This document shows positions 8,709 through 55,953 of a stretch of DNA of 64,000 bases, in pieces (position 1 is the stretch's first letter; each line of letters starts with the position of its first letter). The notes under the pieces are model-generated. The model did not search any database and was not told where the DNA came from. It worked only from the letters and a program-made list of their open reading frames with translations. Source of the DNA: Halovenus rubra (GTDB lineage: Archaea; Halobacteriota; Halobacteria; Halobacteriales; Haloarculaceae). Made by a program: the position numbers and the translations under genes. The DNA lies in the NCBI RefSeq assembly GCF_026586665.1, contig NZ_JAODIY010000005.1:1-64000 (forward strand), given 5' to 3'.

Positions 8709-8779
8709 GGGACCGTGGGGTAGCGGTATCCTCGGCGCATGGGGTGCGTCGGACCTGAGTTCGAATCTCGGCGGTCCCA
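8709..8779 (+). tRNA. tRNA-Pro (GGG)
   Basis: The acceptor stem GGGACCG (8709-8715) pairs with CGGTCCC (8772-8778), with discriminator A. The anticodon stem GGCGC/GCGTC encloses loop ATGGGGT, so the anticodon is GGG. The T-arm is CTGAG-TTCGAAT-CTCGG. There is no intron and no encoded CCA. A box A GCTTAATC lies about 30 nt upstream, and an A-run then T4 follow the gene. Confidence 0.95.
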
Positions 8780-47012: not shown

Positions 47013-48396
47013 GCGCGGAAGCCCACGCTTTAGCCGTGGGAGGAAGCGCGTAAACTCTCTGACCCAACCACTAGCTATGGCAAGCCTGACTCCCCCAACG
47101 CTGGCACAGAATATATAAAAAAAGTGGTTCGTATGTGAATTTGAGATGGAGGTCACACGCACCGTCCCGGTCAAACTCGACGTACCCGGCGAGCGGCGCG
47201 ACGACCTCCATCAGACCATCGAACAGTTCAACACCGCCGCCAACTACACTATCGACCACGGCAGCGACGACAACGGCGACCTGATTCTCAACAAGTCCAC
47301 CATCCACGACGAAGTGTACCACGACCTCCGGGACGAAACCGACCTCCCCGCCAACCTCGTGGTGCGGGCCTACTCGAAAGCCGTCGAAGCGATGAAAAGT
47401 ACCGTCGCGGAGTGGGAGAAGGGTAACAACCGCCCACTCCCGTCATTCGATGAACCCTCTGCCGTCTACGACAAGCGCACGCTGACCATCAACGACGAGT
47501 ACGCCACGCTCTCTACCGTCAACGGGCGCGTCAAAGCCGACTTCGTACTCGGAGAGTACCAGCGGTCGTACCTCAACGATGACGACTACGAGAAACGGAT
47601 GGGAACGCTCCACTACCGTCCCGACGAGGATGCGTTCTACCTCCACATCGTCATCCAGAAAGAGGTTGACCAGCGTGACGGCGACCGGGTGCTTGGCGTG
47701 GACTTGAACCTGAAGAACGTCGCCGTGACCAGCACGGGACGGTTTTTCGACGGTGGCGAACTGCTGTGGGGGCAGAACCACTACTTCCGCGTCAGATGGA
47801 GCCTTCAGGACAAAGGCACCCGTTCCGCTCGGCAGGCGTTACGGCGACTGTCGGGACGGGAAAACCGCTTCGTCCTGAACCGCCTGCACACCATCTCGCG
47901 TGGAATCGTGGAGGAAGCCCTACAACACGATTGTTCGTATATCGCCGTCGAGAATTTGACCCACATCCGCGACCGAATGGACGCCCACGACGACCAGTTG
48001 AAACGACAGATGCACAACTGGGCGTTCCGCGAACTCCAAGAGCAAATCGCGTACAAGGCCGCCGAGTACGGCATCCAAGTTGAGTCGGTCAACCCTGCCT
48101 TTTCTTCGCAGACCTGCTCGAAGTGCGGCCACCAGTCCAGCACAAACCGAGATTCGGATGGCTGGTTTGGTTGTAACGAGTGTGGGTACGAAGTTGACGG
48201 CGACTACAACGCGGCGAAGAACGTCGGACTGCGACTTTTAGCTTTACCAGAGGGCAAACGTCCCTCTGGGTTGGGCAACAGTCAGCTTGCCCTGAAGTCG
48301 GGGACATTGAACGTGAGCGACGTGTCCAACGTCCACTCCAGCATAGAGTTTGAACGGGAGTCCACCGACAAGCCCACCCCTTCAGGGGTGGGTAGC
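47013..48396 (+). mobile_element. solo TnpB (IS200/IS605-group, IS1341-type) element
   Basis: A tnpB gene is bracketed by hairpin-bearing ends and has no tnpA beside it, the IS1341-type layout. The left hairpin has stem CCCACG (47022-47027) / CGTGGG (47035-47040) and is enclosed by GCGC repeats. The right hairpin has the perfect stem CCCACCCC (48373-48380) / GGGGTGGG (48385-48392) with loop TTCA. The exact ends are not known to me, so the bounds are approximate. Insertion is between pduO and tRNA-Val. Confidence 0.7.
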
Positions 48397-48399
48397 TGA
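47146..48399 (+). CDS. tnpB: TnpB RNA-guided nuclease (IS1341-type)
   Basis: The 417-residue nuclease appears complete. The RuvC acids are D186 (VLGVDLNLKNVAV), E269 (YIAVENLTHI) and D353 (DGDYNAAKN). The zinc finger in RuvC-III is C324, C327, C343 and C346. The N-terminal wedge-type segment (MEVTRTVPVKLDVPG) and the tail fit haloarchaeal TnpB. TnpB uses an omega RNA from the right end to cut at a target marked by a short adjacent motif. A strong box A (TATATAAA, 47112-47119) precedes ATG 47146. Its 3' end overlaps the right-end hairpin, as expected when the guide RNA derives from the gene's 3' end. Confidence 0.93.
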   Translation: MEVTRTVPVKLDVPGERRDDLHQTIEQFNTAANYTIDHGSDDNGDLILNKSTIHDEVYHDLRDETDLPANLVVRAYSKAVEAMKSTVAEWEKGNNRPLPSFDEPSAVYDKRTLTINDEYATLSTVNGRVKADFVLGEYQRSYLNDDDYEKRMGTLHYRPDEDAFYLHIVIQKEVDQRDGDRVLGVDLNLKNVAVTSTGRFFDGGELLWGQNHYFRVRWSLQDKGTRSARQALRRLSGRENRFVLNRLHTISRGIVEEALQHDCSYIAVENLTHIRDRMDAHDDQLKRQMHNWAFRELQEQIAYKAAEYGIQVESVNPAFSSQTCSKCGHQSSTNRDSDGWFGCNECGYEVDGDYNAAKNVGLRLLALPEGKRPSGLGNSQLALKSGTLNVSDVSNVHSSIEFERESTDKPTPSGVGS

Positions 48400-50453: not shown

Positions 50454-50463
50454 TAATATATGG
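50454..50463 (+). promoter_or_regulatory. box A of the pheST transcript
   Basis: TAATATATGG is the clearest TATA-like element in the whole spacer. The expected start of transcription is about 26 nt later (near 50484), leaving a leader of about 155 nt before the pheS ATG. No box A is evident 25-30 nt before the pheS start itself. Confidence 0.55.
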
Positions 50464-50482
50464 TATCCGACCCCCACAGCAG

Positions 50483-50638
50483 GTGTTTCGCACGCGAAGT
50501 AGCGATAACCCGAGGGTTCGGATTTTTTGTTTTCTGAGCCGTGGCGCGTGGAGCCGCTCATCAGGTGAGCCGGTGAAACCCGCCAGTTGGAACGGGAACC
50601 GTTAACTAACCGACCCCCGGTGTATCCACCAACAATCA
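50483..50638 (+). ncRNA. structured leader of pheST (candidate attenuator)
   Basis: The leader contains several hairpins: AACC-CGAG-GGTT (50508-50519), followed closely by a T6 and T4 run (50523-50533); TGAGC/GCTCA (near 50535-50560) with inner GGC/GCC; and a nested CGGT+CCCG / CGGG+ACCG stem with a G-A-rich internal loop (about 50571-50600). A GTG at 50483, exactly at the predicted transcription start, opens a 40-aa frame (stop TAA 50603-50605) with Phe at position 2 and an IFCF patch in the T-run. Both terminator-type and leader-peptide readings are inference. Confidence 0.45.
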
Positions 50639-52147
50639 ATGCAACTGCCACCAACACAAGCCGCGGTCCTAAAAGCGGCGGACGCACAGACGAAACGAGA
50701 CGTAACCGAGATTGCAGCTGAAACCGATGAGAAACCCGAATCGGTCACACGAGCCGCGTTTGAACTCGAAGACCGTGACCTCATTACAGTCAGCGAGCAC
50801 GTTGAGGTGAGTGTCGAACTCACTGAGGAGGGCGAACGATACGCCACAGAGAGTCTGCCCGAAATTGCGCTCTATGAGGCCGCCGTTGACGCTGGCGCGG
50901 CCGACGACCCTGTCGCACTTGGTCGCCTCATCGGAGACGCAGGACTTGACGGCGATGCGGTCGATATCGCACTCGCAAACTTCGCGCGCAAGGGGTACGG
51001 TGAAGTCGACAGCGGTGAGGTGACTGTCAACCCCGCCGTCACATCCACAGAGGATGCCGAAATGGCAGCACTCGACACGCTCGTCGAGGGCGGAAGTATC
51101 GAAGACGAATCGATATTAGAAGAGATTGACCGCCGAGGTCTGGTCGAACGCTCCGAGCGGACGGTTCGTGCAGTCACCTTGACCGACGAGGGTATTACAA
51201 CGCTGATGGAAGGCATCGAGACAACCGAGACAATCGACCGGCTCACGCCTGACCTGCTGACCAGCGGCGAGTGGGAAGATGTCGAGTTCACCGACTACAA
51301 CGTCGAGGCAGAAGCCTCGGAAAAACAATCCGGTCGGAAACATCCCCTCCGGCAGACGGCTGACCGTGTAAAAGACGTGCTCGTCGGCATGGGTTTTCAG
51401 GAGATGCAGGGGCCAACTGTCGATGCGGATTTCTGGATTCACGATTGTCTGTTTATGCCCCAGGACCATCCTGCCCGCACGCACTGGGACCGGTTTTCCA
51501 TTGAGAACCCTGGAAAAATAGACGATATCCCGTCGGACCTCGTCGAGCGCGTCGAAACCGCCCACCACGAGGGCGTTGGTCAAGACAGCGAGGGGTACCA
51601 CTCGCCGTGGGACGAAGACTTTGCCCGACAACTTGCACTTCGTGGACACACGACATCACTGACCTCGCGGCATCTAGCTGGGGAATCACTTGGCGACCTT
51701 GAACCGCCACAGCGCTTTTTCAGCGTCGAGAAGGCCTATCGGAATGACGAACTTGATGAAACACATCTGCTTGAGTTCTACCAGATTGAGGGCTGGGTGA
51801 TGGCAGAGGAACTGTCAGTCCGTGACCTCATGGGAACGTTCACCGAGTTCTACGAGCAGTTCGGTATCACCGACCTACGGTTCAAACCGACGTACAACCC
51901 CTATACAGAGCCGAGCTTCGAACTATTTGGCCGCCATCCCGAGACAGACGAACTCATCGAAATTGGCAACTCCGGACTCTTCCGACCAGAAATGCTCGAA
52001 CCGCTTGAGGTCGACTGCGATGTGATGGCGTGGGGACTCGCACTCGAACGTTTGATGATGCTCGCGTCGGGCGCTGAGGATATCCGTGATGTTCATGGAA
52101 CGCTTGTCGATCTTGAATTCTTGCGGACCGAGGAGGTGACATACTGA
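50639..52147 (+). CDS. pheS: phenylalanyl-tRNA synthetase, alpha subunit
   Basis: The 502-residue subunit is the archaeal/eukaryal type with winged-helix tRNA-binding repeats in the first 200 residues (TQAAVLKAADAQTKRDVTEI; VEVSVELTEEGERYATESL) and the class II catalytic domain after about 230. Motif 2/3 regions include HPARTHWDRF, FYQIEGWVMAEEL and the end AWGLALERLMML. It shares the four bases of its stop with the ATG of pheT (TGATG), so alpha and beta are coupled. It has a long structured leader. Confidence 0.95.
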   Translation: MQLPPTQAAVLKAADAQTKRDVTEIAAETDEKPESVTRAAFELEDRDLITVSEHVEVSVELTEEGERYATESLPEIALYEAAVDAGAADDPVALGRLIGDAGLDGDAVDIALANFARKGYGEVDSGEVTVNPAVTSTEDAEMAALDTLVEGGSIEDESILEEIDRRGLVERSERTVRAVTLTDEGITTLMEGIETTETIDRLTPDLLTSGEWEDVEFTDYNVEAEASEKQSGRKHPLRQTADRVKDVLVGMGFQEMQGPTVDADFWIHDCLFMPQDHPARTHWDRFSIENPGKIDDIPSDLVERVETAHHEGVGQDSEGYHSPWDEDFARQLALRGHTTSLTSRHLAGESLGDLEPPQRFFSVEKAYRNDELDETHLLEFYQIEGWVMAEELSVRDLMGTFTEFYEQFGITDLRFKPTYNPYTEPSFELFGRHPETDELIEIGNSGLFRPEMLEPLEVDCDVMAWGLALERLMMLASGAEDIRDVHGTLVDLEFLRTEEVTY

Positions 52148-53975: not shown

Positions 53976-54599
53976 ATGTACACAGGCGTTGTCGAAGCCA
54001 CAGGGCGGATTGAGTCGAACACACAGGTTGAGGACGGGTGCCGACTCCGTATTGAGACCGAGACCGCGGAACTGGAACCGGACAACAGCATCAACATTAG
54101 CGGGGTCTGTCTAACCGCAGAGGCGGTCGGTGACGGCTGGTTCGATGCGTTCCTCTCGGCTGAAACTGTCAGTCGGACATATCTCGCCAACGCAGCAGTC
54201 GGTGAGCAGGTAAATATCGAACGGCCACTGGAAACTGACGGACAACTCGATGGTCACGTTGTCAAGGGAACAGTCGATACGGTGGTCAACGTTGCCGATA
54301 TCACGTCTCTTGGTGAGGACTGGCAGTTCACGTTTACCGTTCCGGACGGCTACGAACAGTACCTCGTCAACAAGGGAGCAGTCGCGCTTGATGGGGCTAG
54401 CCTCACAGTAACTGACCTTACTGAGGAGACGTTTACCGTTGCTATTGTTCCCCAGACCTACGAGATAACGACCTTTTCGGATAAGCAGGTCGGCGACCCG
54501 ATACACTTCGAAGCAGACATCCTAGCGAAATATATCGAACGACAGCAAGCCCTGGCTGGTCACTCGGAGTCTTGCCGAGCCAGCGAGTCGTCAGGATAG
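53976..54599 (+). CDS. ribE: riboflavin synthase
   Basis: The 207-residue enzyme has the duplicated barrel of bacterial-type riboflavin synthase: MYTGVVEATGRI with CLTAEAVGDGWFDAFLSAETVSRTYL, and the second copy GHVVKGTVDTVV with GAVALDGASLTVTDLTEETFTVAIVPQTYEITTF. Haloarchaea use this type rather than the archaeal RibC. With rbkR and ribB at 41-42.6 kb it gives three flavin genes in the window, at two loci. Its 3' end overlaps the convergent trpS by 40 nt. Confidence 0.93.
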   Translation: MYTGVVEATGRIESNTQVEDGCRLRIETETAELEPDNSINISGVCLTAEAVGDGWFDAFLSAETVSRTYLANAAVGEQVNIERPLETDGQLDGHVVKGTVDTVVNVADITSLGEDWQFTFTVPDGYEQYLVNKGAVALDGASLTVTDLTEETFTVAIVPQTYEITTFSDKQVGDPIHFEADILAKYIERQQALAGHSESCRASESSG

Positions 54600-55750
54600 C
54601 CGATTGTCTGAAGTGCTTGCCGTCGTTCCTCGTCGGTCAGTCGATACGGTTGGAGTTCCGTGTGTAGTGGACCTAACTGTTCGCGGCGTTGCTGGTGACC
54701 CTCAAGGAAGTCGGCTATTGTCGCCGCGGCTAGTTGCTTGAGTTCACCGGTCAGTAAAGAGCCGTCGCGATACTCCTGGGCCAGGCGCTGGACCCGCTGG
54801 TCGTCTTTTTCGAAGAAGTAGTATAAGAGTAAGTAGGCAACATCCACATCAGGGTTGCCACCCTGTTCGCGGTGTTTCGCAACGCTGGTTTGCCCACCAG
54901 AGTAAGCGTGTGTCTGTATTTTCTCACGAATAGTTTCGCGGTCGTCTGACAGGAGGATACTCGGCGTGTCGTCAGAAGAACTCATCTTGCCGGGGCCATC
55001 CAAGCTTGGGAGGAACTTCGAGAGCAGTGCGCCGGGTTTTTCGACGTCGTGGCGCTCCTTGCCAGCAACGTCCCGACAAACCCGGACATGGGGGTCTTGG
55101 TCAACTGCGATGGGAACCAGTGTCGGCTGTCGACCCTCAACCAGTTGCGGAAGCAAGAGGTGTGTCGCCTGAACTGCCGGATAAAACGAGAGGCCGACGT
55201 TCTCAGGGTCGCCGTAGGTTGCATCGACTGTTGCCTGTGTAATCTCTTTGCCCAGCGCCGATGCAACTGGGTAGACAACATCTGCGTCCGCACTGTCGAC
55301 GACGATACGTGTCCGTTTGGGGTCAAATCCGACGGCAAGCAAATCCCTGAGATTCTCGCGCGTGTGGTCACTTATCGACTCTATTGACTGGTCTTTTAAC
55401 AGATACTTCTCGTCGTCAGAGAATGGAATGTACACCGTTGTCCCTGCTGCCCTTTGGAGATAGCGAGCAAAATAAAACGGAAAAATGTGGCCGATATGCA
55501 TCGGCCCTGATGGGCCTCGCCCGGTGACGAGAGCGTGGTCATCCCCGCTGTTCGCAGCAGCGAGGAACGGGTCAAGATTACGCTCTGCGTAGAATACTTC
55601 CCGGCGGACGAGCGGGTGAGTTGGGTCTGGGAACCGTTTGCGTTGGTCCGCTGTTAGTTTGTCTGCGCCAAACTGGTTGAGTAACTGTTCGTAGTCGACG
55701 TTCCCGTCGACGCTGTACGGCGTTACGGTGAATTCAGATTCTGCTGGCAT
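54560..55750 (-). CDS. trpS: tryptophanyl-tRNA synthetase
   Basis: The 396-residue class I synthetase has the HIGH motif as GRGPSGPMHIGHIFPF and the KMSKS motif as GPGKMSSSDDTPS. The N-terminal GxDxL (VDYEQLLNQFG) segment belongs to the archaeal type. ATG 55750 has no good box A 25-30 nt upstream; the likely promoter lies beyond a structured leader of about 170 nt (55751-55920). Its stop lies inside the 3' end of ribE, a 40-nt convergent overlap that may let the two genes form antisense RNA. Confidence 0.94.
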   Translation of the reverse strand: MPAESEFTVTPYSVDGNVDYEQLLNQFGADKLTADQRKRFPDPTHPLVRREVFYAERNLDPFLAAANSGDDHALVTGRGPSGPMHIGHIFPFYFARYLQRAAGTTVYIPFSDDEKYLLKDQSIESISDHTRENLRDLLAVGFDPKRTRIVVDSADADVVYPVASALGKEITQATVDATYGDPENVGLSFYPAVQATHLLLPQLVEGRQPTLVPIAVDQDPHVRVCRDVAGKERHDVEKPGALLSKFLPSLDGPGKMSSSDDTPSILLSDDRETIREKIQTHAYSGGQTSVAKHREQGGNPDVDVAYLLLYYFFEKDDQRVQRLAQEYRDGSLLTGELKQLAAATIADFLEGHQQRREQLGPLHTELQPYRLTDEERRQALQTIGYPDDSLARQDSE

Positions 55751-55920
55751 TGTTTCTGGTGACTGTGGTGCTCAGTTGATGAGCGATACACGAAAGAAAG
55801 TGAGTGAGCACCGCGCCCAAAACGTCGGGTGAGGCCCGACGATTCAGGTGGCGATACTATCCACTCCCTGGCGGAAGCGCCAACGCCAGCTGTCTGCGAC
55901 GGGAGTAGATAGCACGTCTA
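55751..55920 (-). ncRNA. structured leader of trpS (candidate attenuator or small RNA)
   Basis: Read on the minus strand, a 12-bp stem is formed by CTATCTACTCCC (55901-55912) with GGGAGTGGATAG (55857-55868). It encloses a TGGCG/CGCCA hairpin (55869-55882). Downstream comes a 7-bp GC-rich hairpin CGTCGGG/CCCGACG (55823-55841) followed by TTTT (55819-55822), resembling an intrinsic terminator. The 12-bp stem pairs fully only on this strand, where one pair is G-U; on the other strand that position would be A-C. This supports a minus-strand RNA. Box A CAATTATCTG lies at 55944-55953. Confidence 0.5.
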
Positions 55921-55943
55921 CATCGGTAGCAAACACACAGTAA

Positions 55944-55953
55944 CAGATAATTG
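55944..55953 (-). promoter_or_regulatory. box A of the trpS leader transcript
   Basis: CAATTATCTG (minus strand) would place transcription start near 55920, just before the 12-bp stem, so the leader of trpS would be about 170 nt. Confidence 0.4.

Follow-up and report, generated by a model that had tools for sequence, protein, structure and literature searches.

The region upstream of trpS2, the second tryptophanyl-tRNA synthetase gene of Halovenus rubra, looks, from its sequence, like a case of leader-peptide (ribosome-mediated) attenuation in an archaeon, a kind of control known from bacterial tryptophan genes. It is very probably a cis-acting leader that would sense charged tRNA-Trp by the translation of a short ORF and set the expression of trpS2. 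Sensing through the codons of this ORF is strongly supported, and modelling suggests that an antitermination step may follow it. The original prediction had pointed to an attenuation-like control; this idea is borne out by leader ORFs with cognate codons, the leader ORF itself having been overlooked.

A short reading frame with tryptophan codons upstream of trpS2

The window analysed here is the whole 64,000-nucleotide stretch of H. rubra DNA. The genome also has trpS1 besides trpS2. The gene and the coding and promoter elements of its leader are:

54560..55750, minus strand: trpS2, second tryptophanyl-tRNA synthetase (NF008927)
55844..55915, minus strand: leader ORF of 23 codons with a GTG start, VLSTPVADSWRWRFRQGVDSIAT and a stop codon (sequence and orthologue scan)
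55880..55888, minus strand: regulatory codons TGG CGT TGG (Trp-Arg-Trp), enclosed by the loop of stem P1, with the Trp codons conserved in orthologues
55947..55952, minus strand: box A-like AATTAT, putative promoter of the leader transcript (sequence and AT-rich peak in 39 orthologues)

The leader ORF reads, from 55915 to 55844, GTG CTA TCT ACT CCC GTC GCA GAC AGC TGG CGT TGG and, after these, CGC TTC CGC CAG GGA GTG GAT AGT ATC GCC ACC TGA, and both of its Trp codons are located inside the loop of a 12-bp stem (P1). A box A had been said to fit a start just upstream; the box A-like sequence is AATTAT at 55952-55947. The AT content of the orthologues is highest, at 0.72, some 24-29 nt upstream of the ORF against a background of about 0.40, and a box-like sequence at -40 to -22 is present in 28 of 39 of them, whereas a control stretch has one in 1 of 39. 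Because the AT-rich stretch lies about 24-38 nt upstream of the leader ORF start, this ORF should begin at the 5' end of the transcript or within about 10 nt of it. The starts of some ORFs are uncertain; the leader ORF of the window begins with GTG.

The conservation of the ORF was analysed in 40 non-redundant haloarchaeal trpS2 orthologues from varied neighbourhoods. When scanned for a short upstream ORF that contains Trp-x-Trp, 39 of these 40 related species were positive, compared with none of 30 regions upstream of pheS and 1.45% of shuffled sequences; a scan for Phe codons gave the opposite result, with 24/30 pheS and 0/40 trpS2 regions. The Trp codons are constant and the codon between them differs (CGC, CGT, CGG, CAG, CCG, TCA or CAT). 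The reading frame of the leader ORF is kept across orthologues: the length of the P1 loop has the same remainder modulo 3 in 33 of 40, and the distance from the first Trp codon to P1 in 36 of 40, compared with a 15/10/15 distribution for the non-coding span of P2. The common design consists of M..STP/SAP.. WRW .. GVDS/GADS.., P1, P2, an apical hairpin GGGCCUMACCC and a pyrimidine-rich tail. It was also found in Haloferax prahovense, H. mucosum, H. elongans, Natrinema zhouii, Natronococcus jeotgali, Halogeometricum pallidum, Halosimplex pelagicum and a Halobacterium, and trpS2 keeps this leader beside different neighbours.

Covarying stems and a pyrimidine-rich tail

The RNA elements of the leader, all on the strand of trpS2, are:

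55901..55912, minus strand: P1 5' strand (region 1), within the leader ORF, CUAUCUACUCCC (covariation on alignment A1)
55857..55868, minus strand: P1 3' strand (region 2), GGGAGUGGAUAG (covariation on A1)
55850..55858, minus strand: P2 5' strand, AGUAUCGCC (with 8 of 9 pairs formed in the window; covariation)
55823..55841, minus strand: apical hairpin of P2, loop CCUCA (four pairs with two-sided changes)
55807..55815, minus strand: P2 3' strand, CGCGGUGCU (covariation)
55789..55806, minus strand: pyrimidine/U-rich tail (region 4), CACUCACUUUCUUUCGUG (conserved position after P2)

The strand-specific stem described from the letters of the window, 55901-55912 with 55857-55868, was confirmed. P1 forms 12 consecutive pairs on the minus strand, one of them U-G, and the opposite strand would have an A-C mismatch at that position. 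RNA folding of the trpS strand gave z = -3.36, with none of 200 shuffles equally stable, compared with z = -2.48 for the opposite strand. In alignment A1, which comprises 35 sequences of related species, 94.4% of cells are paired for P1, P2 and the apical hairpin together. Two-sided changes were observed at 14 of 23 pairs compared with 7.1 in shuffles, and no shuffle of 500 was as good; compensatory changes in relatives, the lack of which had been named beforehand as counting against the stem, are thus present. When strands were swapped between species, the pairing of own strands was reached by none of 20,000 permutations, which leave the relatedness of the species in place, for P1 and P2 alike.

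P1 is a covarying helix that encloses the Trp codons, and one that a stalled ribosome would prevent. The GC-rich 7-bp hairpin with four T residues, which had been taken as terminator-like, has a different place in the structure. CGUCGGG/CCCGACG followed by UUUU at 55841-55819 is the apical part of the longer, conserved P2 hairpin, and the UUUU after it is not conserved among orthologues; the conserved tail is the one at 55806-55789, after P2.

Two other explanations of this region were considered. One of them takes the ORF to encode a functional small protein and the RNA structure to be secondary. The ORF does have a conserved end (..VDSIA or ADS..), but these C-terminal residues are encoded by the strands of P1 and P2, the pairs are maintained while residues change, and in some orthologues the ORF ends before reaching them (L019: MVTSRDIDCWRWRWQ and a stop codon), so this explanation is very improbable. 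The other is an independent small RNA, as raised with the original prediction, or a structured non-coding RNA that adjoins trpS. A stable fold, an own promoter and the lack of an Rfam family as another explanation would agree with it; the element, however, stays directly 5' of trpS2, trpS1 or serS in differing neighbourhoods, which in nearly all examined genomes places it directly upstream of a synthetase gene, and its frame is conserved with codons cognate to that synthetase. A small RNA is therefore disfavoured to the point of being hardly credible. The Rfam search, which included the T-box and the Trp leader among others, gave no match above the gathering score, and the best chance match scored 13 bits where the cut-off was 80. 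An H/ACA or C/D guide RNA, considered by eye, was also rejected, as there was no Rfam match for it.

A possible antitermination switch

The mechanism proposed for the leader is as follows. Transcription would start at the leader ORF or a few nucleotides before it, as the position of the promoter suggests, and translation would thus be nearly leaderless. With ample Trp-tRNA, the ribosome would clear the Trp codons and reach the stop codon within the 5' arm of P2. After its departure P1 and P2 would fold, the U-rich tail would be single-stranded and transcription would presumably stop there. When Trp-tRNA is scarce, the ribosome would stall at the Trp codons and P1 could not close, because its loop, which in most species measures about 23-35 nt, is close to a ribosome footprint in size. 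The freed 3' strand of P1 is predicted by folding to reach around P2 and pair with the tail; the U-rich stop signal would then be hidden and trpS2 transcribed. In the window, the switch is predicted to involve 55803-55796 of the tail and 55868-55861 of the P1 3' strand. A first register of this pairing, GAGUG:CACUC, was seen by eye and rejected, as it fails where P1 has GAGCG; UCGCUUUC is the better register. The stop codon of the leader ORF is upstream of the P1 3' strand in orthologues L019 and L020 and about at the end of that strand in L023 and L031, which speaks against this mechanism.

The stall was simulated by masking the RNA that a ribosome on the Trp codons would cover. The expected number of pairs that region 2 makes with the tail rose from 1.05 to 8.48, and at least five such pairs were predicted in 39 of 40 species, compared with 4 of 40 for naked RNA. 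The unpaired proportion of the tail decreased from 0.65 in naked RNA to 0.28 in stalled RNA; with the ribosome at the stop codon it was 0.54. Shuffled tails paired almost equally (7.06 compared with 8.48 pairs), and the pyrimidine content therefore explains most of the pairing between region 2 and the tail. On the alignment, this helix has one-sided changes only. Since shuffled tails pair nearly equally and two-sided changes are absent, we infer the hiding of the tail from the folding model.

The intergenic terminators of Haloferax volcanii consist of T stretches that end at C (PMC7237163), and in some species the U-rich tail after P2 resembles these signals: several tails read TTTTTC. Many tails, however, have only U3 runs, which are weak terminators for an archaeon: the aCPSF1 protein of Methanococcus requires U4 tracts for efficient binding (PMC8716108). 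As a refinement of the attenuation model, it is conceivable, and proposed here with considerable reserve, that antitermination occurs via aCPSF1/FttA, region 2 pairing with the tail and so shielding the U-tract from the termination nuclease after the passage of RNA polymerase. This would agree with the tail being the predicted decision element with its partner upstream, and with the binding of terminator U-tracts by aCPSF1 (PMC8716108); on the other hand, the U-tracts are weak and the specificity of the pairing beyond pyrimidine content is small.

The moderate U-richness of the tail would also fit a model in which the leader ORF senses Trp-tRNA and the control is exerted at the translation of trpS2 or the stability of its mRNA, not at termination, with the stalled ribosome remodelling the RNA around the beginning of trpS2. 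A further hairpin (GUGCUCA..UGAGCAC), present just upstream of trpS2 in close relatives of the window, would agree with this model. This hairpin was, however, seen by eye and only in these relatives, and the tail is separated from the conserved part of trpS2 by very different lengths, from about 30 to more than 200 nt. We regard this model as rather unlikely.

Related leaders and known systems

The claim that the window contains a second synthetase gene with such a leader was also correct: pheST is preceded by an ORF with Phe codons.

50460..50537, plus strand: pheST leader ORF, MVSDPHSRCFAREVAITRGFGFFVF and a stop codon, Phe-rich, ending GFGFFVF
50639..52147, plus strand: pheS, downstream of the Phe leader

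Phe-rich leader ORFs recur before haloarchaeal pheS genes (24 of 30 by a strict scan), and those of relatives end GFGFFFA. The RNA scaffold of the pheST leader looks different from that of the Trp leader. Its Phe codons UUU UUU GUU UUC are at the same time a U-tract after a short CCGA/UCGG hairpin. A conserved GGUGGAGCCG...CCGGUGAAAC is present 3' of the ORF of the pheST leader (for example at 50540-50590 of the window and in L045 and L051) and could be a kink-turn-like element. Elsewhere in the window, an ORF at 47146-48399 (plus strand) with a likeness, by eye, to TnpB-type transposon proteins adjoins tRNA-Val, and tRNA-Pro (ggg) at 8709-8779 (plus strand) was called by ARAGORN and not reached by the tRNA model of Rfam.

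The distribution of the Trp leader was followed with covariance models. Among 293 genomes of the order, the first (R1) detected it in 136, in most cases before trpS2, before trpS1 where no trpS2 was found, or before serS; 29 of the best 30 loci could be placed, and trpS2 is the next gene in all 29. A second model (R2), with the codon loop masked, gave 191 of 392 genomes at a loose cut-off of 0.01, some of these matches being weak or doubtful. In a phylum-wide sample there were 14 positive genomes, all of the one order. The leader precedes the main trpS1 in genomes that lack trpS2 at the threshold used; for the trpS1 of the window's own genome no leader was seen, and R2 matches only trpS2 there. 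Second, weak matches in other genomes are mostly partial and noise-like.

Upstream of serS (TIGR00414) the same scaffold carries MESTSRSRSQSSFWEVDS.., with Ser codons replacing Trp. The serS leaders L177, L178 and L185 contain the Ser codons SRSRSQSS and SHSRSR, with SRSRSQSS at the place where trpS2 leaders have WRW. The presence of Ser codons on the same scaffold before serS and of a different Phe leader before pheST indicates that the codons are the sensor. A few rare copies of the scaffold (L162, L164, L167, L166 and L170) precede genes that, judged by eye, encode an ABC transporter and a GNAT acetyltransferase or are methyltransferase-like; obvious matching codons are absent from L162, L164 and L167, which counts against the codon-sensing model. 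No Trp leader was found upstream of trpC; what is conserved there is a stretch at the start of the gene. Its motif CAAGTCTTATGTACATCTCTGTCCATTAGTGTTCAATA, immediately before the trpC start in loci L090-L116, may be the operator of a repressor on a leaderless transcript.

In bacteria, ribosome-mediated attenuation is a textbook mechanism. No archaeal case is known to us, and the open full-text literature, the coverage of which was incomplete, yielded no report of a leader-peptide attenuator in archaea. The nearest known parallels are bacterial. In the E. coli trpL and pheM (pheST) attenuators, a short leader ORF has cognate codons and a stalled ribosome blocks region 1. The haloarchaeal leader shares the first property and is proposed to share the second, and pheST of the window also has a Phe leader; the haloarchaeal RNA architecture differs in lacking a conserved GC hairpin with a long U run and in reusing one scaffold with Trp or Ser codons. 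T-box leaders also control synthetase genes by tRNA charging, but they sense the tRNA directly, with no translated ORF, whereas the haloarchaeal leader would use one and has no Rfam T-box match. A close parallel may be drawn with Streptomyces, where an attenuator of the auxiliary TrpRS gene has reportedly been studied experimentally by Vecchione and Sello. A ribosome-mediated trpS attenuator was predicted for this gene (PMC1262725). Both systems combine a second TrpRS gene and a leader peptide with Trp codons, and the mutually exclusive RNA folds of the Streptomyces one are predicted for the haloarchaeal leader too; the Streptomyces one has a bacterial intrinsic terminator, in contrast to the pyrimidine/U-rich tail, long intervening P2 and probably near-leaderless ORF described here.

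A broader proposal, which we put forward tentatively and with more doubt than confidence, is that these leaders represent a haloarchaeal family of leader-peptide attenuators (Trp, Ser and Phe), in which Trp and Ser codons are swapped on one scaffold and the switch consists in hiding or exposing a U-tract for the archaeal termination nuclease, and not in a terminator hairpin of the bacterial type. If the attenuation model is correct, coupled transcription-translation would serve gene control in archaea, the leader would be a natural reporter of this coupling and of archaeal termination, and haloarchaeal synthetase genes would have a specific regulator.
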